Shown in pieces: positions 892 to 13,090 of a stretch of DNA of 23,820 nt. Origin of the DNA: a virus. Every line of letters begins with the position of its first letter. Positions within the stretch are counted from its first letter, which is position 1. A program made the translations under genes and the position numbers. Below the pieces are notes generated by a model. The model saw only the letters and a program-made list of their open reading frames with translations, did not search any database and was not told where the DNA came from. The stretch spans positions 1-23,820 of the IMG/VR virus record IMGVR_UViG_3300030329_001868; one strand, written 5' to 3'.

Positions 892-1008
892 CTACCAACT
901 CAATTTCTTTGGAAGCCGATGCCGTTTCTCTTTCACATACGGGCGCACAATCGGTCTGATCTTAAAACGCTGACCAGCACACATAGAAAGTTTGAACTTC
1001 GTCACCAT
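892..1008 (-). CDS. Small basic peptide, first gene of the cysteine-rich cassette
   Basis: 38 aa, ATG at 1008, TAG at 892-894. It is strongly basic (many Lys/Arg; ends in HRLPKKLSW) with a single cysteine at residue 10. No ribosome site precedes the ATG, but an extended -10 (TGC-TATCTT) ends eight bases upstream, so the transcript would start at or next to the ATG and be leaderless, as is common in actinobacteria. It is the first gene of the minus-strand cassette and ends three bases before the 28-aa peptide. Function unknown; it could bind nucleic acid. The alternative is that it is only a leader whose translation feeds the downstream genes. Confidence 0.5.
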   Translation of the reverse strand: MVTKFKLSMCAGQRFKIRPIVRPYVKEKRHRLPKKLSW

Positions 1009-1016
1009 GCCCAGAA

Positions 1017-1025
1017 AAGATAGCA
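1017..1025 (-). promoter_or_regulatory. Extended -10 promoter, leftward, leaderless
   Basis: Minus-strand TGC-TATCTT matches TGn-TAnnnT. The end of the -10 lies eight bases before the ATG at 1008, putting transcription start at or within a base or two of the start codon. No convincing -35 is seen 17 bp upstream. Confidence 0.45.
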
Positions 1026-1038
1026 GAAAAAAAAGAAA

Positions 1039-1047
1039 TGGTATTAT
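1039..1047 (+). promoter_or_regulatory. Extended -10 promoter, rightward, leaderless
   Basis: TGG-TATTAT (five of six bases of TATAAT plus the TGn extension). The -10 ends six bases before ATG 1054, so +1 should fall at 1053-1054. It is divergent to, and within 15 bp of, the leftward promoter. No clear -35. Confidence 0.5.
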
Positions 1048-1053
1048 TGGGTA

Positions 1054-1332
1054 ATGACTATAGAAGACGTAGCAGACCGAGCTGACGCATGGTCAGAGGC
1101 AATAAAAAAAATAATCAAAGCGATCTCAGCAGCCGGAATTGCCCTCGGAACCGGCATCGCAGCACTCCTAGCCCTATGGCCCTCCTCAGAAACAACCGAA
1201 CCAACACCCGACGTATTAACCGGCACCGGATACGGGCCACAATGCTCCCAGCTATACAACACCATCGACCACACCTGGACAGAATCCCAATGGACAGTAT
1301 GGGAACAACTCAAACGTGACATGAACTGTTAG
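1054..1332 (+). CDS. Small single-pass membrane protein
   Basis: 92 aa. A charged N-terminus (about 1-22) is followed by one hydrophobic helix (about 23-42, AISAAGIALGTGIAALLALW) and a polar, Pro/Thr-rich then Trp-rich C-terminal part with cysteines at 64 and 92. There is no Shine-Dalgarno; the extended -10 six bases upstream predicts a leaderless mRNA. The antisense frame is also open over this stretch, but the plus-frame hydropathy, promoter and C-rich codon third positions (as in the 11182 gene) favour this strand. Its stop is immediately followed by a perfect DnaA box. Function unknown; holin-like or superinfection-exclusion roles are possible but unsupported. Confidence 0.65.
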   Translation: MTIEDVADRADAWSEAIKKIIKAISAAGIALGTGIAALLALWPSSETTEPTPDVLTGTGYGPQCSQLYNTIDHTWTESQWTVWEQLKRDMNC

Positions 1333-1341
1333 TTATCCACA
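1333..1341 (+). promoter_or_regulatory. DnaA box (perfect consensus)
   Basis: TTATCCACA matches the bacterial DnaA consensus exactly. It abuts the TAG of the 1054 gene and lies ten bases before the extended -10 at 1351, so DnaA binding could also regulate that promoter. Confidence 0.6.
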
Positions 1342-1350
1342 AAAAGGGGA

Positions 1351-1359
1351 TGCTATAGT
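1351..1359 (+). promoter_or_regulatory. Extended -10 promoter reading into the non-coding region
   Basis: TGC-TATAGT is five of six for the -10 with the TG extension, predicting a start near 1365-1367. No protein-coding gene follows for 750 bp, so the product would be a structured untranslated RNA or a primer. No good -35. Confidence 0.4.
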
Positions 1360-1365
1360 AACCAA

Positions 1366-1697
1366 CACAAGCAGAGACATCGTGAACAGAACGACGCTAA
1401 CCCAGGCGAAAGTAGGGTTGCGAGGTGCGAAACCTTCGACCCGAACAATCGACGTAGGGCCAGTAAAGCGTTAGACGCTGCCAGTCTCCAACGCCTACGT
1501 GAAAAAACACAAGCAAAGGCGTTCAACAAAAACTCCCAAGACTGAAATCGAGTGCTGGTAAAGGGAAGCCTGGGCAGCACACAAAACATCGACCAGTCAC
1601 AACCCGGCCTTCCAACCGAACAATCCCCGGTTGGCTCCTAAGCGAAACCACGGCTCCGACACCGTACAACAACAGGAAGCTCCCCCACTGGGGGGCT
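1366..1697 (+). ncRNA. Candidate structured RNA downstream of the 1351 promoter
   Basis: Hairpins in order: a 7-bp stem 1452-1458/1494-1500 enclosing a perfect 5-bp hairpin 1467-1471/1475-1479 (AGCGT-TAG-ACGCT); a 6-bp stem 1552-1557/1575-1580; a 7-bp stem 1612-1618/1628-1634; and an 8-bp stem with a C-rich left arm and G-rich right arm at 1678-1697 that could be the 3' end, although no U-run follows. No known RNA family is recognised, and tRNA and tmRNA features are absent. The structures may instead act as DNA in replication initiation. The 3' end is a guess. Confidence 0.25.
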
Positions 1698-1748
1698 ACC
1701 TCTGCTCACCCACCCACCAACACCGTCCGGAATACCTTCCCCACAAGC

Positions 1749-1816
1749 GGAACAAACGGAACAAGTGGAACAAATCACACCCCCTCAAAAGCAGTATTCC
1801 ACAATACGGAACAAAC
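1749..1816 (+). repeat. Iteron-like 9-bp direct repeats
   Basis: Three contiguous 9-mers, GGAACAAAC (1749-1757), GGAACAAGT (1758-1766) and GGAACAAAT (1767-1775), and a fourth GGAACAAAC at 1808-1816, the last preceded by a small palindrome (GTATT-CCAC-AATAC, 1793-1806). Tandem short repeats next to DnaA boxes are typical of origins that bind an initiator. The repeat length is a multiple of three, so a coding repeat cannot be formally excluded, but no credible gene frames it. Confidence 0.5.
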
Positions 1817-2004
1817 CCCTGAACCAAACCCCCCAAAACACCGATAAACAAGATGTGTGTGGTAGGGGCGGCGGTAATCCCCCCCTTTTAGCGTGTGAGC
1901 TTACTAAACGTTCGTTAAGCAGTGAGGTATCCCCCAAATTTCCCACGACAGGACCCCGAGACTAAATTCTAATTACCGTTAGGTAACTTGTGGTGTGGTT
2001 CAGG

Positions 2005-2025
2005 TTATGCACAGCTTGTGGATAT
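2005..2025 (+). promoter_or_regulatory. Facing pair of DnaA-like boxes
   Basis: TTATGCACA (2005-2013) fits TTWTNCACA. Three bases on, TGTGGATAT (2017-2025) is a minus-strand box with one mismatch. The pair forms a near-palindrome and lies next to an AT-rich stretch (about 2027-2065), the arrangement expected of an unwinding region. Confidence 0.45.
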
Positions 2026-2038
2026 CTCTGTAATGTTT

Positions 2039-2083
2039 TTGTTACATAAATGGCGCATTTTGTACTACGAACTCTGCTACCGT
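2039..2083 (+). promoter_or_regulatory. Candidate promoter of the early operon
   Basis: Two weak options: TTGTTA (2039-2044) with TACTAC (2063-2068) at 18 bp spacing, or an extended -10 TGC-TACCGT (2075-2083). Either would give a short leader before GTG 2118. Position is logical, the match is poor. Confidence 0.25.
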
Positions 2084-2117
2084 TCTCTGTATCGGCTAGA
2101 CGTGAAGGAGAGAGCAC

Positions 2118-2522
2118 GTGGCAAAGGCTAAGTTTTGGGGAAACCTCAACAAAGGCTGTATTTCTTACAAGGATACCGGAGCGACTGAGTACCTGACAGG
2201 TTCTCAGGTTGTAGCGCTTACGGGTTGCGAGTTTCGGGTACAGGCTGCCGGTCACCTGCGTGCAGTGAAGGTGCGTGAGGTTGTGGCACGGATACACGCG
2301 GAAGCGTGGGAAGTCGTACCCGGCTCTATCGCTGACTATGAGAACGACTCCGATTGGGTCGAGGTCTCTTACAACCCGAAGGAGCGACCGGAGCAGGATC
2401 ATTTCGCTACCCGTAGCGGAGAGCGTGTCAACACTGCGCAACGTGCGGTAATCATTACAGATCCATCTATTAACAATAAAGCAAAAGTAAAAGCGTTCGT
2501 ACTTACCGGTACGACTAACTAA
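2118..2522 (+). CDS. Conserved-type early phage protein, function unknown
   Basis: 134 aa, GTG start preceded by GAAGGAGAG, a strong ribosome site, so the GTG is preferred. Soluble, no signal peptide or membrane segment. It starts MAKAKFWGNLNKG and has a central WVEVSYNPKERPEQDHFATRSGE stretch; from memory this recalls small actinophage proteins with a YNP motif and unknown role, but the match is weak. It is the first gene of the rightward operon just after the candidate origin, so early expression is likely. No catalytic motif is visible. Confidence 0.75.
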   Translation: MAKAKFWGNLNKGCISYKDTGATEYLTGSQVVALTGCEFRVQAAGHLRAVKVREVVARIHAEAWEVVPGSIADYENDSDWVEVSYNPKERPEQDHFATRSGERVNTAQRAVIITDPSINNKAKVKAFVLTGTTN

Positions 2523-2539
2523 AAGAAAGTAGAGAGAGA

Positions 2540-2974
2540 ATGTCAGACGTTACAGAAACTTGGGAAGCGTACGAAAGAAGCGTTCTAGCGTTCGAGCGTG
2601 CTTTGTGCGCTGCTATGGATTTAGGCGTGGACAGTGAACCCGTCTACAAATTTATGATTGACGAAGATTTAAGCGTGGAGAAGATAGAAGATTACCCAGA
2701 ATTGTGGGAAGCATGGTTTAATTCTAACGTGCTGGAGATTATTAACATTACGCGCACGTCATGGGCAGACAATGAGCCGACTCTAGACGCTGTAGAACTC
2801 CTGCTAGCGTTCGGCGGTCCTAACGTGCGTCTAACTGTCCCCATGCGTTTCGATACCGAGTGGGCTACCTTATCGGTCCATTGGGCTAGCGAGTCGTTCG
2901 AACGTGAGATTCATGTCCCACAAATAAAAGACGTGCTAGGCGTACACGCGGAATGTTTCGCACCTATTAGCTAA
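2540..2974 (+). CDS. Hypothetical early protein
   Basis: 144 aa, ATG 2540 behind a GA-repeat ribosome site (AGAGAGAGA) 17 bases after the previous stop. Acidic, with many Trp and Glu. It begins with a helical stretch (about 5-60), then a segment around residues 90-125 (NVRLTVPMRFDTEWATLSVHW) that looks like beta strands. No motif, membrane segment or family recognised. Its stop is followed at once by a structured RNA element, so it may end a translational unit. Codon use matches its neighbours. Confidence 0.7.
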   Translation: MSDVTETWEAYERSVLAFERALCAAMDLGVDSEPVYKFMIDEDLSVEKIEDYPELWEAWFNSNVLEIINITRTSWADNEPTLDAVELLLAFGGPNVRLTVPMRFDTEWATLSVHWASESFEREIHVPQIKDVLGVHAECFAPIS

Positions 2975-3074: not shown

Positions 3075-3530
3075 ATGAGAGAGAACTACGAAGGTGTAAA
3101 CGTGCTGGACACTGACCCATTCAAACATTACCTATGGGAGATAGTGATGAACGGAGGAGCAGACGAGTTTGCAGGTAGCGCAGATTTCCACGGTCTAACA
3201 ATCGACCGACTCGGTAGGCACGTCCTAATCTGTAACGCTTGGGGACGCCTAGAGCATGTAAAAATGCACGGCCATAAATGGGAGCATCATTTTCATATGT
3301 GGCTAGAAGATTACTTTGGGGAGGATGAAGCGTTTAGGCTGACTCAGTTACATCAGGACTGGCAATATGACGACTACTACTTCCCTATGAACGACGGAGA
3401 GACAGTCGCTCAGGCTGTAGCACGTCGAGACCTGGAGTCACCTGACTCAGCGCACGTCTACTACTACGACGCTAAGAATGGCACAACGACGTTCTACTAT
3501 GACGACGGTAGCGCTATCGCTAGCCTGTAG
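3075..3530 (+). CDS. Hypothetical early protein, Tyr/Asp-rich C-terminus
   Basis: 151 aa. I chose ATG 3075 because GAAAGAGAGAG precedes it with normal spacing; a GTG at 3036 would start inside the structured leader and has no ribosome site. The middle is His-rich (residues 63-80, VKMHGHKWEHHFHMW), which might bind metal. The C-terminal third is full of Tyr and Asp (YDDYYF, VYYYDAKNGTTTFYYDDG), the look of a beta-hairpin repeat. No family recognised. It sits between two structured leaders, so its expression is probably tuned separately from its neighbours. Confidence 0.7.
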   Translation: MRENYEGVNVLDTDPFKHYLWEIVMNGGADEFAGSADFHGLTIDRLGRHVLICNAWGRLEHVKMHGHKWEHHFHMWLEDYFGEDEAFRLTQLHQDWQYDDYYFPMNDGETVAQAVARRDLESPDSAHVYYYDAKNGTTTFYYDDGSAIASL

Positions 3531-3537
3531 TTTCTGA

Positions 3538-3592
3538 CACTCACCTATCGGCTCATGCTGGTAGGTGGGTGCCAGTGCCTACCGGTAACTGG
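3538..3592 (+). promoter_or_regulatory. Structured leader with 12-bp hairpin
   Basis: CACTCACCTATC (3538-3549) pairs over all 12 positions (two G-U) with 3560-3571 across a 10-nt loop; a second hairpin, CCAGT/ACTGG (3572-3576/3588-3592), ends against the GA-rich ribosome site of the 3613 gene, touching the first bases of GGAGAGAG. There is no U-run, so this is more likely a leader structure than a simple terminator. Confidence 0.5.
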
Positions 3593-3612
3593 AGAGAGAG
3601 AAAAGAGAGACA

Positions 3613-3921
3613 ATGACTAGCAGAGTAGAATTTGCGAACAGCGCTGGCCGAATCGTAGAAATAGATTTCGGCCACGAGATGGAAGAAGCCATCAAATATT
3701 GCAGGACTGCCGACGAGTACCACAGAGTGCTGGTCCCCTACTGCGAATACTGCGAGAAGCGAATGACGCAGGACGATCTTCCCAAAGGACATCTCTATGG
3801 GGAACTATGCGACGAGTGTTTTGACTTTCGCTGTTGCAGCCTAGAAGAAGCCGGAGTAGAAGATTCTGTAATCGCAGAAGCAGCAAAGTTTGCACAGTTT
3901 GAATGGACGGTATGGGCATGA
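3613..3921 (+). CDS. Small zinc-ribbon protein
   Basis: 102 aa, ATG 3613 behind a long GA-rich ribosome tract. Two CxxC pairs (C44/C47 and C66/C69, with C74/C75 just after) form a zinc-ribbon-like knuckle pair about 18 residues apart. An amphipathic N-terminal part (1-40) and an acidic C-terminal helix flank it. The function is unknown; small zinc ribbons in phage early regions often bind nucleic acid or host RNA polymerase (family knowledge, not shown here). The stop overlaps the next start (ATGA). Confidence 0.7.
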   Translation: MTSRVEFANSAGRIVEIDFGHEMEEAIKYCRTADEYHRVLVPYCEYCEKRMTQDDLPKGHLYGELCDECFDFRCCSLEEAGVEDSVIAEAAKFAQFEWTVWA

Positions 3922-4145
3922 TGGACCTAAGCGACCGACGAGTACAAGACATGCTAGAAGCAGACAAACAAGAAGCACTAGCACGAATACGAGCCAAGAA
4001 ACTCAGAAAGAACGTGATCGAACTACAAAACTTTAACCCTCCGACAATGGAACCACGCTTTTGGGGAGCCGACGACGACTGGTACAAGTGCTCACAAAAC
4101 GAGTGGGCTGGGGACCTTAACGAATTCACAGGAGAGACACGATGA
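3918..4145 (+). CDS. Hypothetical early protein
   Basis: 75 aa from ATG 3918, which overlaps the upstream stop as ATGA; in-frame ATGs at 3903, 3912 and 3921 are alternatives. The N-terminal half is a charged helix (about 3-35, rich in Ala/Arg/Lys/Glu), the C-terminal half is aromatic (PRFWGADDDWYKCS). No family recognised. Coupled to genes on both sides. Confidence 0.65.
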   Translation: MMDLSDRRVQDMLEADKQEALARIRAKKLRKNVIELQNFNPPTMEPRFWGADDDWYKCSQNEWAGDLNEFTGETR

Positions 4146-4342
4146 TGGATTTTCTGAGCGAGATTTACAGCGACTACCTACTGAAACACGACCTACCGGC
4201 GGTGTGCGCCGAAGAACTAGCAGTGTCACACTTCGGAACAGATCACCACGACTGGCTAGAAAAATTCATCGTGGTGTGGGACCACTACCAACAACAACAC
4301 GACAGAAATATGTACGGAGGAGAGAACTATGGCAACCGCTAG
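4142..4342 (+). CDS. Hypothetical early protein
   Basis: 66 aa, ATG 4142 overlapping the previous stop, with GGAGAG upstream; a second ATG follows at once. Predicted mostly helical and acidic, with several His and Trp (FGTDHHDWLEKFIVVWDHY). No signal peptide, membrane segment or motif that I can name. It overlaps the next gene by 14 bp. Confidence 0.65.
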   Translation: MMDFLSEIYSDYLLKHDLPAVCAEELAVSHFGTDHHDWLEKFIVVWDHYQQQHDRNMYGGENYGNR

Positions 4343-4589
4343 AATCGGATCAGTCGTGACAGACAGCGCGTGCATCTCGATTATTGCACCCGAACGCATC
4401 ACGAACGTAGACGAACGAAACGAAGCGTGCGCTCCGACGCTGGACACAGTATTCGGACAGTGTTTCGATGATCTAGCGTTCTCGTTCGCTACTGGCATGG
4501 ACGGCGAATATCCAATAGTCGCCACCTTTGACCCGGACACGCGAGCAATAACCGCCATCACTATTCAACTAATACCCGACAAAATTTAG
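4329..4589 (+). CDS. Hypothetical early protein
   Basis: 86 aa, ATG 4329 behind GGAGGAGAG, a strong ribosome site inside the previous gene. Predicted mixed alpha/beta; the C-terminal part (DGEYPIVATFDPDTRAITAITIQLIPDKI) reads as beta strands. Cysteines at 15, 34 and 45 show no metal motif. No family recognised. It is the last gene before the 4594 hairpin. Confidence 0.65.
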   Translation: MATARIGSVVTDSACISIIAPERITNVDERNEACAPTLDTVFGQCFDDLAFSFATGMDGEYPIVATFDPDTRAITAITIQLIPDKI

Positions 4590-6261: not shown

Positions 6262-6588
6262 ATGACAAACCAATTCCATCTCAACACACGATTTGAGAAC
6301 GGAGGCTTCGACGCTAACCCGTGGTACCTGGCAGTCACCGAACCGGCAGACTCAGGCATCACGGTAACCGTGCAGCACCGTTCCGAAGTCGAGGCACACC
6401 AGTACGCTCCATCACACTGTGACTGGCTCGTGCAGCTCGACACAGATCATGCGATGACTGAGACAATGAAGTTGTGGCTGACAGATAAGGCTCTCCGTAA
6501 GCTGACTGATGCTGCGGCGACACAGTTATGGGAAGCCCCGGTGCCTGCCGTCGCCGGTGAATCTGCATACGAGACTTTTGACGAGTGA
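6262..6588 (+). CDS. Hypothetical early protein
   Basis: 108 aa from ATG 6262, behind AAGGGGGGTC; upstream in-frame ATG at 6064 would overlap the lysozyme-like gene by 145 bp and is rejected. N-terminal half reads as beta strands (PWYLAVTEPADSGITVTVQ), C-terminal half as helices. No recognised family. The stop overlaps the GTG of the nuclease gene, placing it at the head of the recombination cluster. Confidence 0.7.
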   Translation: MTNQFHLNTRFENGGFDANPWYLAVTEPADSGITVTVQHRSEVEAHQYAPSHCDWLVQLDTDHAMTETMKLWLTDKALRKLTDAAATQLWEAPVPAVAGESAYETFDE

Positions 6589-7430
6589 GTAACGTCAACA
6601 TAGCTCGTGCGGCGTGTCTCAAGACACTCCACGAGGAGAGAGATGAAGAAGGGCATCGCCCAACGGCCTTCGGTACGTTGGGTAGAGGGTCGCAGGCAGG
6701 CGGCTGTGACCGTTCCATAGCGTTCGACATGATGAGCGCTGAACCATCAGAAGAAATCTTGGACTCCACGTTGATGGCATTCAAGACCGGCCAACATTTA
6801 CATGAGTTAGTGCAGGCTGCGATGGTGCGGCAATACGACATGGACTGCGAAGTCCCCGTAGACCTCAGATCGTTGGGGTATCCCATCAGTGGACACGCTG
6901 ACGGGGTGTACATCCTTGACGGCTTAACTATCGTCGCAGAAATCAAAACAAAAAAAGCGTACCCAATCAAACTGGCACGCCGCCAACTAATACCAGAGCT
7001 TCACGAAGTGCAGCAGGCCGGAATGTACGCGATGGGTGTAGGAGCGGACGCTATCCACTTGATTTACTACGCCAAAGACAACGCAGGTACAGCTCGCAAG
7101 CCCACTGATTTTGTGGAGGCTGGTGAAACTGTTGAATGGTTGCTGTATCTCGATCAGGAAGTTCCTGGTGATGGCCGCACAGTAGAGCAGGTCGCTTCCG
7201 CAGAAGCCACCCGCATCACCGCTATCGCTGGACAGGTCGAGGATGGGATGATCCCCGAACGATTTGTTCCTGGGTATGGGACGGTGCCTGTGCTTCCCGA
7301 TCCGGGGAGTATGGATGCGCCGTGGCGTTGCCGTTACTGCGACTACTGGGGGCTGTGCGAGACACTCCCCGCTGGTCAGGTGGCTGCGGCTGATGTGTTA
7401 ATACCAATAAGAAAGGATGCAAATGTCTGA
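6585..7430 (+). CDS. Cas4/RecB-like PD-(D/E)XK exonuclease with Fe-S cluster
   Basis: 281 aa, GTG 6585 (GTGA overlap). Nuclease motifs: His71/His73 in GQHLHELVQ, Asp106 in SGHADG, Glu119-x-Lys121 in VAEIKTKK, and Gln144..Tyr148 in QQAGMY, the RecB-type order. C249, C252 and C258 (CRYCDYWGLC) with C41 are the likely four ligands of a Cas4-type Fe-S cluster. Such enzymes resect double-strand ends to feed an annealase, and the next-but-one gene is a Rad52-like annealase. There is no cas1/cas2 or repeat array, so this is phage recombination, not CRISPR adaptation. Confidence 0.85.
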   Translation: MSNVNIARAACLKTLHEERDEEGHRPTAFGTLGRGSQAGGCDRSIAFDMMSAEPSEEILDSTLMAFKTGQHLHELVQAAMVRQYDMDCEVPVDLRSLGYPISGHADGVYILDGLTIVAEIKTKKAYPIKLARRQLIPELHEVQQAGMYAMGVGADAIHLIYYAKDNAGTARKPTDFVEAGETVEWLLYLDQEVPGDGRTVEQVASAEATRITAIAGQVEDGMIPERFVPGYGTVPVLPDPGSMDAPWRCRYCDYWGLCETLPAGQVAAADVLIPIRKDANV

Positions 7431-7656
7431 GACTGAACAGTTAATGACACTCCAAGATGTCGCTGAATATTTGAAGGTGTCTAAAGCCACCTTGTATTCG
7501 TGGCGTTGCAAAAATGAAAACACTGGGCCGACAAGGGGGCCACGATCTATCAAACTTGGTAGGCATGTTCGTTACCGTCGCTCAGATGTTGACGCTTGGC
7601 TACAAGAAAAGGAGGAAACAGATGTCGGATCTGTTGAAACTGTCGAAACCGTTTAG
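7423..7656 (+). CDS. Excisionase-type helix-turn-helix protein
   Basis: 77 aa from ATG 7423, six bases after GAAAGG; an ATG at 7417 touches the ribosome site. Typical MerR/excisionase (HTH_17) layout: LMTLQDVAEYLKVSKATLYSW (about 7-27), then a loop, then IKLGRHVRYRRSDVDAWL (48-65). The family binds DNA and often bends it. No integrase is in the window, so a replication or regulatory role inside the recombination cluster is more likely than excision. Confidence 0.85.
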   Translation: MSETEQLMTLQDVAEYLKVSKATLYSWRCKNENTGPTRGPRSIKLGRHVRYRRSDVDAWLQEKEETDVGSVETVETV

Positions 7657-8056
7657 CCCACGGTTCATTGAAAAGAAAGGTGGGTCGTTTAATGCAGACT
7701 ATGTGTCCCACTCCACAGTAAATGAGTTCCTGTTAGGGATACTCGGGCCGTTTGACTGGCAGCTCGTTCAAGTTCTTCACGAACCTGACGGTGCCATCAG
7801 CGGTGTCGTGTACCGCCTGTCTGTTGAGATAGATGGACGAATGGTGCACGTTGAAGAAGTTGGCTCCATCCAGCAGGGTGGAAACAAAAACAACGGGGAC
7901 CGCATGAAGGACGCAGCTTCAGACAGTTTGAAGCGATGCGCCATGCGACTGGGCCTCGGTTTACACCTCTGGTCGCAAGACAAATACATCTTGCACAGCA
8001 CGTTAGAATCAAAGACCGCCACAAAAAAGGAGACAGATGATGGCGTTAGCGTTTAG
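7622..8056 (+). CDS. Rad52-family single-strand annealing protein
   Basis: 144 aa, ATG 7622 with a near-perfect AGGAGG ribosome site. The C-terminal part MKDAASDSLKRCAMRLGLGLHLW (about 97-119) matches the hallmark of Rad52/Sak-like annealases (K-x2-x-SDxLKRxA..GLGxxLW), preceded by VSHSTVNEFLLGILGPFDWQ and the GSIQQGG segment. It anneals complementary single strands for recombination-dependent replication and works with the exonuclease upstream and SSB downstream. Shorter than classic Rad52 but normal for phage versions. Confidence 0.85.
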   Translation: MSDLLKLSKPFSPRFIEKKGGSFNADYVSHSTVNEFLLGILGPFDWQLVQVLHEPDGAISGVVYRLSVEIDGRMVHVEEVGSIQQGGNKNNGDRMKDAASDSLKRCAMRLGLGLHLWSQDKYILHSTLESKTATKKETDDGVSV

Positions 8057-8441
8057 TGGGAATCTCACTCGTGACCCCGAGTTGAGGTACGGACAGAGCG
8101 GAACCCCGTGGGTCACGTTCACCGTTGCTGAAACACGAGGTCGAGATGACAACAAGAAAACAACTTTCTGGGAATGCAAAGCGTTCGGTGACATGGCCGA
8201 ACACATCGGAGAGTCGTTCGCTAAAGGTCAGCGTGTCATCGTTGACGGCTCCGCTGAGACAGAGCAATGGGAAGATAAGAACAGTGGACAGAAACGATCC
8301 AAGATCGTGGTCACCGCGTGGGATGTAGGCCGCTCAGTGCGATTCGATTCGCTGGTAGCTGACGCTCCTGCCGCAAAGAAAGAAGATGCTCAGGCAGCTA
8401 AGGCTGTGCAGGCAGCGTTCGCAGATGAGGAGCCGTTCTAG
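8037..8441 (+). CDS. ssb: Single-stranded DNA-binding protein
   Basis: 134 aa, ATG 8037 (or the adjacent ATG 8040) behind AGGAG. OB-fold signature: LAFSGNLTRDPELRYGQSGTPWVTFTVAET at the N-terminus, TTFWECKAFGDMAEHI, FAKGQRVIVDGSAE and KIVVTAWDVGRSV. It ends in an acidic ADEEPF tail, like the SSB tail that docks partner proteins. It coats single strands for the annealase and for replication. Overlaps the annealase gene by 20 bp. Confidence 0.95.
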   Translation: MMALAFSGNLTRDPELRYGQSGTPWVTFTVAETRGRDDNKKTTFWECKAFGDMAEHIGESFAKGQRVIVDGSAETEQWEDKNSGQKRSKIVVTAWDVGRSVRFDSLVADAPAAKKEDAQAAKAVQAAFADEEPF

Positions 8442-9260: not shown

Positions 9261-10089
9261 GATTCTTAGCCTGTGCAGCGGCTATGGGGGGCTTGACCTC
9301 GCAGTAGAAGAACACTTTGCAGGTTCGCACACCGCTTACTGGTCAGACATAGACCCGTCAGCGTGCGACATTATGACCGCTCGGTTTCCCGATGCGGAAC
9401 CCGTCGGAGATTTAACCCAATTCGGTGACACAGTTTTTGACTGTGACATCCTGACTGCTGGCTATCCATGCCAGCCTTTTTCCCACGCTGGGAAACGCTT
9501 AGGAGAAAACGATGAACGACACCTCTGGCCCTACATTGCCAACACCATTAGCACATCTCGGCCCAGATGGGTCATCTTGGAGAATGTCGCAGGCCACGTT
9601 AATCTCGGAGGACCAGCCGTTGTTGGAACGCTTACCGAAATGGGGTACAGCGTCCGATGGGGAGTTGTACGAGCTTCCGATGCCGGAGCGCCTCATCAGC
9701 GTAAGCGGCTTTTCATTGTTGCCAACGCCAGTAGTGAACGACATGGGGGACAACAAGACGTTGGACTGGTGGCAGCATTGGATCGAGGAGAAAAGAAGAC
9801 AACACAACAACGGCAACGGTCACGGCAAGAGTTTGAGCATAGAAGTCAGACAAATTTCGGAGAGTACGCCCCCGCTATTAGCCGATGGGAGCACGTTGTT
9901 GGGCGACTCGCACCGCCTCCTGTAGAAGACAACAAACTTTCTGCCAGTTTTGTGGAGTGGATGATGGGACTTGAAAAAAATTGGGTGTGCGGGGTCGTTG
10001 GAAGCAGAGCCAAAGCGTTAAAAGTTTTGGGCAACGGCGTGGTGAAACAGCAGGCACGTTTAGCATTAGAACTGATCTGCGATGAGTGA
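9253..10089 (+). CDS. C5-cytosine DNA methyltransferase
   Basis: 278 aa with the expected motifs in order: I (SLCSGYGGLDLA, 6-17), IV with catalytic Cys73 (AGYPCQPFSHAG), VI with Glu110 (VILENV), VIII (HQRKRLF, about 149-155), IX (LSASFVEWMMG) and X (LGNGVVKQQA). The target-recognition part between VIII and IX is short. No matching restriction enzyme is nearby, so it is an orphan, probably protecting phage DNA from host cleavage. Residues about 87-224 are also read in another frame by a nested ORF. Confidence 0.95.
   Translation: MSKILSLCSGYGGLDLAVEEHFAGSHTAYWSDIDPSACDIMTARFPDAEPVGDLTQFGDTVFDCDILTAGYPCQPFSHAGKRLGENDERHLWPYIANTISTSRPRWVILENVAGHVNLGGPAVVGTLTEMGYSVRWGVVRASDAGAPHQRKRLFIVANASSERHGGQQDVGLVAALDRGEKKTTQQRQRSRQEFEHRSQTNFGEYAPAISRWEHVVGRLAPPPVEDNKLSASFVEWMMGLEKNWVCGVVGSRAKALKVLGNGVVKQQARLALELICDE
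9512..9925 (+). CDS. Nested ORF in a second frame of the cytosine methylase
   Basis: 137 aa in the +1-shifted frame, entirely inside the methylase gene. Its ATG has an excellent ribosome site, AGGAG six bases upstream. Its content looks like protein rather than noise: two LPTP motifs (residues about 9-12 and 70-73), DGSSWRMSQ, a WGTASDGELYELP segment and NNGNGHGKSLSIE. These recall, from memory, a family of actinophage ORFs encoded at or in methylase genes. It might be real dual coding or a conserved by-product of conserved methylase codons. Function unknown. Confidence 0.45.
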   Translation: MNDTSGPTLPTPLAHLGPDGSSWRMSQATLISEDQPLLERLPKWGTASDGELYELPMPERLISVSGFSLLPTPVVNDMGDNKTLDWWQHWIEEKRRQHNNGNGHGKSLSIEVRQISESTPPLLADGSTLLGDSHRLL

Positions 10090-10372
10090 AATAGTTTACG
10101 TTCCACCCGGCCAAATAATTACAGACGACCACGCCCACCAAACAGTCCAATACTTCTGGGATCGCACCCACCCCAAACCCCTCACCCCACTCCCAAAGAT
10201 CCAGAACATAGCCAAACGAGCACTCATCGCCGGATACACACCCGAAGAAGTAGTGCGCGCCCTCAACCAATGCCGCGCTTTCACCATCCCCGCAGTCGAA
10301 TACCAGCTCCGATCTTCTTCTATCCCCAACTATGGGCGTAACGCTGAACGAGTATTACGAATGATGGAATGA
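10082..10372 (+). CDS. Hypothetical protein of the replication/methylation cluster
   Basis: 96 aa. ATG 10082 overlaps the methylase end by 8 bp and its stop overlaps the next ATG. Begins with a strand-like MSEIVYVPPGQIITDD, then helices (about 56-85, YTPEEVVRALNQCRAFTIPAVEYQL). The helical part looks like a small DNA- or protein-binding module; no family recognised. Codon use is C-rich at third positions like the 1054 gene. Confidence 0.7.
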   Translation: MSEIVYVPPGQIITDDHAHQTVQYFWDRTHPKPLTPLPKIQNIAKRALIAGYTPEEVVRALNQCRAFTIPAVEYQLRSSSIPNYGRNAERVLRMME

Positions 10373-11510: not shown

Positions 11511-11551
11511 CTCCCGTCGGGTTCTCTCTCCCCGGCGGGAGTTTTATTTTT
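11511..11551 (+). terminator. Intrinsic terminator between converging operons
   Basis: 11-bp stem (11511-11521 with 11531-11541; one T-G pair), 9-nt loop TTCTCTCTC, then TTTTATTTTT. It ends the rightward early operon; the T-run includes the stop codon of the leftward PP-loop gene. On the minus strand the stem can form but no U-run follows. Confidence 0.9.
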
Positions 11552-12332
11552 CGTCGTATTCAGTCATACACCCACAGCCACCCCACTCCAACAAGTCAAG
11601 CTGCCCGGTGTCCTCCGCTTGGATCTGCAATCGAAAGTCTTTCAACGTAATCGGAATCTTCACTCCCTTAACTTGCTTCCGTAAAATCGTTACATCAGCG
11701 TCAAGGTAATCCCGTATCTCCTGCTCGTTACGTTCCCACTCCGCATACCGTTCAGGCAACGCACCAAGCGCCCACTTGAAATGCCCCTGTCCAGCACGCA
11801 CACACATCCCCCCACAGTTATTGTGCGGTGCTCCCAGATCGTAAAGGCGTGGCTGTTTAATACCCCACTCTTTCAACAAATCTTCTGCTTCTGACTTATC
11901 CATCAACGGTTCCCACAACAAAGGAAAGTCCACGTTGTACGGCTCCCAATGCTTAGGTATCCGTTCAGCTCTGTGCGCCTCAGTCCAGTCAATACCGAAA
12001 TGCAAAGTCGTGTCATCAGGATCGGGACAGTGTTCGTCCACCCATTTCTGACTCGCTTCTTGCTTCAAGATGCGTGAGCACAGAGGTACCCGGTCGTTGC
12101 CGAGGAATCGTCTTTGCTTAAACACTTCCCAAATGTCACGTCCGTCCGCTACCTGGATAAGAGGGAGGTCTAGCCTTTCAGCGGTTTCTTCTAAGAAACG
12201 GTAAAGGTCTTCGTCCTCTGTCTTAGTGTCAGTGAACAACAACTGGATGTCCCCATCAGGGTACGTTTCTTTAACTCGGTGAGCTGCGAGGAAGGACGCT
12301 TTGCCTCCCGAATACATGACGACATGCTTCAT
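11544..12332 (-). CDS. PP-loop ATPase, PAPS-reductase-like protein
   Basis: 262 aa, ATG 12332 overlapping the exonuclease stop (TAATG). The SGGKAS loop (8-13) binds ATP for adenylation; the rest follows the adenine-nucleotide alpha-hydrolase fold. Cysteines at 85 (PLCSR), 173 and 177 (NNCGGMC) and 253/255 could carry sulfur or an Fe-S cluster. Relatives reduce PAPS, thiolate tRNA or DNA (DndC), or activate bases; phage versions are common and their substrate is usually unknown. A nucleic-acid thiolation or modification role is possible. Last gene of the late operon. Confidence 0.8.
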   Translation of the reverse strand: MKHVVMYSGGKASFLAAHRVKETYPDGDIQLLFTDTKTEDEDLYRFLEETAERLDLPLIQVADGRDIWEVFKQRRFLGNDRVPLCSRILKQEASQKWVDEHCPDPDDTTLHFGIDWTEAHRAERIPKHWEPYNVDFPLLWEPLMDKSEAEDLLKEWGIKQPRLYDLGAPHNNCGGMCVRAGQGHFKWALGALPERYAEWERNEQEIRDYLDADVTILRKQVKGVKIPITLKDFRLQIQAEDTGQLDLLEWGGCGCMTEYDEK

Positions 12333-13090
12333 TACGGCACTAGGTTAGGTGACGTGGCACTAGACCGCACACGCTCACGGCAATAAGCACCACACGCCTT
12401 ACACTGAAGCTGCACATACTGGGCAACCTTCGTAGACCGGCACCCTCGACGTATCAACTCGCCGTGACCACAAGTAGGACAAGAATCAGGGCGACCGTCA
12501 AGCAGCGCACGATTCGGATGGTTGTTCATCCACGGACGCAACCGGTGGTACACCATCGCTAACAGATCAACGTCCTGCCGAGCGTACTTCTTCATAGTGC
12601 GCCACGACTTCTCGTCCCCCATCATGCAACCCTTCCACAAAGCGAAACCGCCCGTGGCTTCCTTATTGCCCAGCCCCAAATGTTCTCCCAGGTCACCGAG
12701 TTTGTTGCTGTTGAACATGAAGTATTTGCGCGCAACTTTCAGGGTGTCTACCTGCTGCACAGGGGTAGGGGGTGTCATGTGATGGGCGATGAATCGGGCG
12801 TTAGCTTTACGCATGTCAAACTTGTCGCCGTTGTGAGCGATCACAATGTCGGCTTCGTCAAACAACTCCCACAATGCTTTAGCTACCTCGCGGTCGTTCT
12901 CTGGTTCAGTGGCGTACAGCTCAAAGTCTGGGAGTGCGACTACTTTCGTAGTTTTCTGCCCTTCCCATTTGTAAGAGAAGCACATCATGTACCACTCTTG
13001 GTGCTGCTCGATCACGTTCTGGTCGTATTGACCCCACACATACGCCAAGTTAGGCGCGGTTTCAATATCGTAGAACAGTACCTTTGCCAT
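12332..13090 (-). CDS. DEDDy 3'-5' exonuclease with C-terminal zinc ribbon
   Basis: 252 aa, ATG 13090 behind AAGGGGG. The exonuclease domain has ExoI D8-I-E10 (FYDIETAP), ExoII NGDKFD (87-92, Asp92) and ExoIII Y169-x3-D173 (YARQD), the layout of the RNase H-like exonucleases related to polymerase proofreading domains. C204/C207, C217, C230/C233 and C237 form a zinc ribbon that probably grips DNA. Separate from any polymerase. It lies in the late operon with the PP-loop gene although it is a DNA-metabolism enzyme. Confidence 0.85.
   Translation of the reverse strand: MAKVLFYDIETAPNLAYVWGQYDQNVIEQHQEWYMMCFSYKWEGQKTTKVVALPDFELYATEPENDREVAKALWELFDEADIVIAHNGDKFDMRKANARFIAHHMTPPTPVQQVDTLKVARKYFMFNSNKLGDLGEHLGLGNKEATGGFALWKGCMMGDEKSWRTMKKYARQDVDLLAMVYHRLRPWMNNHPNRALLDGRPDSCPTCGHGELIRRGCRSTKVAQYVQLQCKACGAYCRERVRSSATSPNLVP

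Follow-up and report, generated by a model that had tools for sequence, protein, structure and literature searches.

Gene-free region upstream of the terminase gene

The DNA analysed here, referred to below as the window, is the entire 23,820-b IMG/VR record IMGVR_UViG_3300030329_001868, and since this record is classed linear, we treat the window as a phage fragment. Its left edge truncates the terminase gene, and the portal and other late genes are absent from the fragment. Because positions 3–278 encode the terminase N-terminus, the gene-free region at 1333–2117 lies between a leftward terminase operon and rightward early genes. An earlier reading of the letters alone, the original prediction, had proposed a DnaA-dependent origin in this region; the several hairpins and the long gene-free stretch that it described are both borne out. 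Our analysis favors a different reading, in which positions ∼1354–1968 are probably an RNA-initiated replication origin of the RedRock, Alma, LadyBird and Gladiator kind, in phages that seemingly rely on the host replisome altogether. The features at issue are as follows.

3–278, − strand: terminase large subunit, N-terminal 92 aa, cut by the contig edge; 44–93% identity to ∼635-aa proteins of relatives
1333–1341, + strand: exact DnaA box TTATCCACA, just upstream of the −10-like element of the RNA
1354–1359, + strand: −10-like element TATAGT, a putative promoter element, conserved in the alignment of the window clade and clade 2
1362–1722, + strand: conserved structured noncoding RNA domain of ∼340 nt, a putative initiator RNA, from covariation and blastn
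1395–1420, + strand: H-type pseudoknot, CGC/GCG (1395–1397 with 1406–1408) and TAACCC/GGGTTG (1398–1403 with 1415–1420)
1438–1480, + strand: region homologous to the two-hairpin core, diverged in the window; same alignment columns as the match of model R3 (below) in the relative L122
1676–1700, + strand: 3′ hairpin of the RNA, GAAGCTCCCCC-ACT-GGGGGGCTACC, with arms that co-vary in relatives as judged by eye
1700–1818, + strand: A/C-rich tail, 75% A+C, holding the 9-mers at 1743–1774
1819–1850, + strand: motif B, CTGAACCAAAC-N6-AAAACACCGATAAACA, conserved more widely than any other element
1862–1885, + strand: motif C, a G-run/CGGCGGTAAT/C-run hairpin; CTCGGCACATNCCCC in relatives
1957–1968, + strand: motif D, CGAGACTAAATT, with an AGACT core
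2005–2025, both strands: facing near-boxes TTATGCACA (2005–2013, +) and ATATCCACA (2017–2025, −), one mismatch each
6585–8441, + strand: recombination genes accompanying the candidate origin, namely a PD-(D/E)XK exonuclease, a helix-turn-helix protein, a Rad52/Erf annealase and SSB, from family matches

A DNA search of phage records with window positions 1000–2600 gave no match. Single-sequence scans with the window SSB and a gp82-like protein likewise returned no relatives, so capsid and terminase alignments were used to gather them. The window capsid protein is ∼39–42% identical to those of Manuelvirus-kind Streptomyces phages and 47–93% identical to those of many IMG/VR contigs; the nearest relative, L122, has a terminase N-terminus 93% identical to that of the window. 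The ∼635-aa proteins of relatives match the PHROG terminase large subunit (E 1e-45). Five relatives (G007, G013, G017, G024 and G026) are circular assemblies of 34–38 kb. We see no convincing gene within 1333–2117, and no open reading frame is conserved there in the window and its relatives. A WhiB protein encoded in the window, the actinobacterial-type LexA boxes of relatives, and the occurrence of related RNAs in Mycobacterium and Gordonia phages together point to an actinobacterial host.

A structured RNA supported by covariation

Window positions 1362–1722 can be aligned with the terminase-upstream DNA of L122, L146, L147, L148, L150 and L152, and blastn with the RNA domain gives E ≤ 1e-101 for L147 and L150 and 1.5e-33 for L122 and L152. 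As drawn, the structure contains 41 pairs, with 97.9% standard pairs, 14 pairs that are double-changed, and 34 double-changed cells. None of 500 shuffles reaches any of these three values, and sliding the partners destroys the signal. The covariation shows that the fold of the ∼340-nt RNA is real. The G-U pairs are consistent with the + strand, from which the RNA would be transcribed. The −10-like element reads TATAGT, TACAAT or TACAGT in five of six window-clade relatives, and TACACT also occurs among its versions in relatives of the window clade and clade 2. Within the pseudoknot, CGC/GCG becomes CCC/GGG in relatives, while changes in the second helix are limited to G-U pairs.

At this position the second clade has a shorter RNA, and the third clade has two further versions. 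A hairpin with a GTCARA-like loop is common to all of them; its window copy is the diverged GCG-TTAGA-CGC, and that of L147 is GCG-TCAGA-TGC. Matches of models R1 and R2 to the RNA domain are by construction where training members are concerned. Rfam scans at the gathering level and by E-value gave no credible family for the window or for three relative loci, and matches to eukaryotic long noncoding RNAs and small nucleolar RNAs were rejected as chance.

The RNA core and published RNA-based origins

The 17-mer TCGCCCGTCAGARGGGC from the RNA occurs in more than 100 viral contigs, including those of cluster A mycobacteriophages. Its matches in bacterial genomes are scattered over unrelated taxa at the chance level for that much DNA and were set aside, and the plasmid collection held no match to the RedRock core. 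R3 is a 37-position two-hairpin model made from 12 core sequences, all of them from uncultured relatives. In its training alignment all cells are paired, 16 cells are double-changed, and 0 of 500 shuffles reach these values; its E-values are rough, as calibration was shortened. R3 finds the published RNA origins of LadyBird (6.5e-10), RedRock (1.7e-7), Alma (2.4e-6) and Gladiator (1.9e-5). All four matches are on the strand that is transcribed and within the ori as published; in Alma and LadyBird they also fall within the segments whose deletion puts an end to stable prophage replication (coordinates from PMC7157519). By this comparison the RNA core is shared with experimentally demonstrated RNA-based phage origins.

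Within the family, 47 of 51 loci give a single strong match at the same place and strand upstream of terminase, and in 13 genomes there is one match per genome. The L122 core scores E 2.5e-7. Capsid relatives that have their own DnaB (Zeigle and G036) gave no R3 match better than E 0.2. Beyond the family, R3 also matches Gordonia phage Daredevil (2.9e-6), whose core hairpin, like that of Alma, shows a compensatory C-G to G-C change. The same hairpin is found in L245, L250, L261, L284 and L300, where the RNA around it differs and the pattern applied for motif B gives no clear match; the family of RNAs thus extends beyond the phage group of the window.

A further R3 match, at 1.9e-7, is in the right-end early region of the cluster A4 mycobacteriophage Kampy (L460, KJ510414), where the core lies in noncoding DNA at ∼50.2–50.9 kb of the record. 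The right end of Kampy, which is reported to be strongly transcribed (PMC4626039), and the Pleft transcripts of L5, D29 and StarStuff resemble the putative window RNA in that an early transcript lies between the genome end and the first early gene and reads toward the early genes (PMC4626039, PMC5712189), and the Pleft RNA of L5 and D29 is abundant and toxic (PMC5712189). Kampy shares the core, whereas the D29 right end has no R3 match. On these grounds the window RNA, which likewise reads toward the early operon, could be a regulatory early leader acting on transcription rather than replication, by antitermination or by Pleft-like takeover of the host. We regard this as improbable, as the phages that carry the RNA are without replisome genes.

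Motifs B–D and strand asymmetry

Downstream of the RNA the order of elements is kept in all clades: RNA, A/C-rich tract, motif B, ∼25 nt, motif C, a clade-specific interval, and motif D. In several relatives the tail consists wholly or almost wholly of A and C. Across clades motif B follows the pattern AACCAAA..C..CAAAACACCGATA, and the motif C pattern is matched in family members, often within a G-run/C-run hairpin. The strand is A/C-rich up to the neighborhood of motif D and G/T-rich beyond it; in several relatives the switch is located precisely at AGAC|T. In 12 of 15 genomes the GC-skew check suggested with the original prediction placed the detrended minimum ≤300 bp from motif B, with the caveat that circularity is unproven for contigs that lack end repeats. 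We considered motif B as a promoter (TTGAAC-18-GATAAT) and dropped this, because distant clades have AAACCAAAAC there. A cos site at motif B was rejected too, as contig ends do not cluster there.

More generally, motifs B–D might mark the start site of the terminase or the end of the virion genome, a packaging role that could coexist with an RNA origin. The region adjoins the terminase operon in all relatives, the record of a distant Streptomyces phage, Zeigle (L004), has direct terminal repeats of 264 bp immediately upstream of terminase, and the exonuclease and annealase would fit circularization through terminal redundancy. We nevertheless judge a packaging site or terminal repeat an unlikely account of the region, since contig ends are not clustered at the motifs, five relatives assemble as circles through it, and such a site explains neither the RNA covariation nor the match to mycobacteriophage origins that lie far from their terminase.

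Replication and recombination genes

The SSB and Rad52/Erf-type annealase noted in the original prediction are real. Among the 16 relatives compared, the exonuclease and the annealase are each found in 15. As also predicted, the window has no polymerase, primase or helicase gene, and ∼20 relatives likewise have none for the families tested. DnaB_C and Toprim_2 gave no match in the family genomes (∼20 relatives, including the five circular ones), the only DnaB_C positive being the outgroup-like G036, and DNA_pol_A gave none in 18 of 18 records tested. The largest early protein of G024 is a 294-aa PD-(D/E)XK nuclease, and the large proteins from its late genes are either terminase, portal and lysis proteins or without an assigned function; G038, G043 and G052 hold no further polymerase-like protein, judged by size and name. 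The product of 12332–13090 is only a 3′–5′ exonuclease (PHROG 'DNA polymerase exonuclease subunit'). Family scans of the window and relatives revealed no initiator-like (Rep) protein.

The predicted 'loader-like' protein did not hold up, as neither candidate has a significant family match: 10082–10371 gives only RepB_primase_C at E 0.026, under the family cut-off, and 11152–11481 matches no family. Helicase loaders among the small open reading frames were rejected for the same lack of a match. CbiA/ParA had no match in 21 records, which leaves the linked parABS, an accessory and not a defining feature of RNA origins, without a counterpart among them, and no tyrosine integrase was found in the family genomes. 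In G038 (36712–38561, in L194), a 326-aa cysteine-motif protein adjoins one of 289 aa that begins with a P-loop-like stretch (YLVGPAG); from sequence these neighbors are possibly an AAA+ pair.

DnaA boxes and other host-protein sites

The perfect DnaA box of the original prediction is present (exact TTATCCACA, 1333–1341), as is the facing pair of near-boxes, followed by a T-rich stretch after 2026. When the window, and only the window, was examined for an AT-rich unwinding element, 1963–2060 proved T-rich. The iteron-like 9-mers stand in part: tandem copies occur at 1743–1774 (ACAAGCGGA/ACAAACGGA/ACAAGTGGA), but they are not conserved in relatives. With ≤1 mismatch allowed, the window has six DnaA boxes where 4.5 would be expected, a count attained in 28 of 100 shuffles; two lie within 560 b downstream of motif B (p ∼0.05). 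At the aligned place the 1333–1341 box is present in L150, degenerate in L147, and absent from L122, L146, L148 and L152. Conservation among relatives, proposed as a check on the boxes, was not seen: upstream of terminase, exact TTATCCACA occurs in two of 29 (L147 and L150) and not in L122.

In L147 and L150, five boxes each lie in the 560 b after motif B, between motifs C and D, where ∼0.4 would be expected by chance. These clusters are far above shuffles, so in this subclade the DnaA boxes are genuine and probably serve a function. In the same interval L170, L176, L178 and L184 each have three or four LexA-type boxes (CGAAC-N4-GTTCG), which are near zero in shuffles and otherwise rare in the genomes checked; phages with such arrays may sense the host SOS response. 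As DnaA boxes, LexA-type boxes or other repeats occupy this interval depending on the clade, the host-protein sites in it are interchangeable from clade to clade. Looking at individual loci, we find a LexA-type array in L188 too, a clade-specific repeat TCATTGAA in L122, GTTAGG-N4-CCTAAC repeats in L180 and L187, and a CCAACCG-N-TGGTTGG-like repeat in L175.

An oriC-like origin, at which host DnaA would bind the boxes, melt the AT-rich stretch after 2026 and load the replisome with no role for the RNA, can draw on one exact and two near boxes, on the significant clusters of L147 and L150 and on the absence of replisome genes, but it is the least likely of the alternatives, as the window boxes are near chance, exact boxes are rare among relatives, other clades hold LexA-type boxes or other repeats in the same interval, and the conserved RNA is left unexplained. 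Indeed, dependence on DnaA is unsupported, because exact boxes are found in two of 29 relatives, whereas the structured RNA and motifs B–D are found in every clade. Of the claim that the phage relies on host DnaA and the host replisome, use of the replisome is probable and the region is the best candidate origin. The DnaA boxes are at most accessory, and DnaA may assist in the subclade of the window.

A proposed RNA-initiated origin: mechanism and objections

A folded RNA that belongs with those of the published origins, together with what seems to be a complete lack of DNA-copying machinery, leads us to propose that the virus probably starts copying with RNA and host enzymes. As the best-supported reading, the RNA origin is the only recognizable replication-start function in these phages. 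A promoter at ∼1354 would transcribe the pseudoknotted ∼340-nt RNA rightward, toward the early genes, and the 3′ part of this RNA would remain on the template or be cut there. It would supply a primer or opened DNA, and host polymerase, DnaB and primase would then assemble near motif D; by analogy to ColE1 RNA II, the RNA may prime synthesis near that motif. Phage Rep, polymerase, primase and helicase would all be unneeded, in keeping with relatives that lack them for the families tested. The exonuclease, annealase and SSB could circularize the genome or drive recombination-dependent concatemer formation. DnaA boxes in the window subclade and LexA boxes in others would be add-on sites, which may help to load DnaB or set timing.

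Several points weigh against this proposal. The replication role in the window phage itself is deduced from sequence, and the core in the window has diverged so far that its R3 score is below threshold; the window is placed in the family through its alignment with L122 (E 1.5e-33). Replisome absence was called from three replisome families and protein size only. The skew flip is weak evidence, because gene direction switches at the same place, and motifs B–D could serve packaging, also or instead. The origin of Alma and LadyBird serves the prophage and is dispensable lytically, whereas no ParA or tyrosine integrase was found in the window family. Finally, the mechanism of the published RNA origins, whether by primer or not, is itself unproven.

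Comparison with known systems

RNA-based phage origins are known so far from one cluster of temperate mycobacteriophages. Cluster A mycobacteriophages with RNA origins encode replication proteins. Noncoding, transcribed regions of ∼600 bp from RedRock, Alma, LadyBird, Gladiator and Et2Brutus replicate autonomously without a Rep protein (Wetzel et al. 2020, PMC7157519). Deletion of the ori in Alma and LadyBird gives unstable lysogens and normal lytic growth, and the linked parABS is not needed for replication (PMC7157519). The window family resembles these origins in that its region is also ∼600 bp of noncoding DNA with no conserved open reading frame or Rep gene. Both share the core, a hairpin with a CTWRC-type loop followed by GCCC-GTCAGA-RGGGC on the transcribed strand. 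The contexts differ: the cluster A origins belong to temperate phages, adjoin parABS and are dispensable lytically, whereas the window family has its RNA upstream of terminase, with no ParA or integrase found and no replisome genes. In addition, the A/C tail and motifs B–D of the window family were not seen in the mycobacteriophage origins. Daredevil (NC_048021, L466) is closer in placement, with its core in ∼1.2 kb without annotated genes (3350–4538) upstream of terminase, but differs in being a 90-kb phage.

In outline the window RNA also recalls ColE1 RNA II, which from general knowledge is a structured RNA of ∼500–600 nt upstream of the start and uses host enzymes only. The window gave no ColE1-type match in Rfam at the gathering level or at E ≤ 5, and the antisense RNA I is a feature of the ColE1 system; that the window RNA may act as a primer is suggested by this analogy.

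It is possible that certain cluster A phages have a pair of such RNA elements, serving the prophage and lytic growth respectively, although D29 is unmatched by R3. More broadly, the whole diverse family may replicate through an RNA initiator alone, without phage Rep, helicase, primase or polymerase, with the Kampy-type right-end RNA a lytic origin of the same kind; we advance this tentatively and would put it somewhat below an even chance. We found no published consensus structure for RNA-based phage origins. The same RNA core is now seen in dozens of uncultured phages without replisome genes, and its strong covariation provides a structure that can be mutated. An RNA start of phage DNA replication with host enzymes only thereby becomes testable, as does the role of the early RNAs that are abundant at the right end in cluster A phages, and new replication modules for actinobacterial plasmids are a possible yield.

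Two further genes of the window, both on the − strand, encode a phage 4Fe-4S ferredoxin (Fer4_15, 566–823) and a PAPS reductase-family protein (11544–12332).
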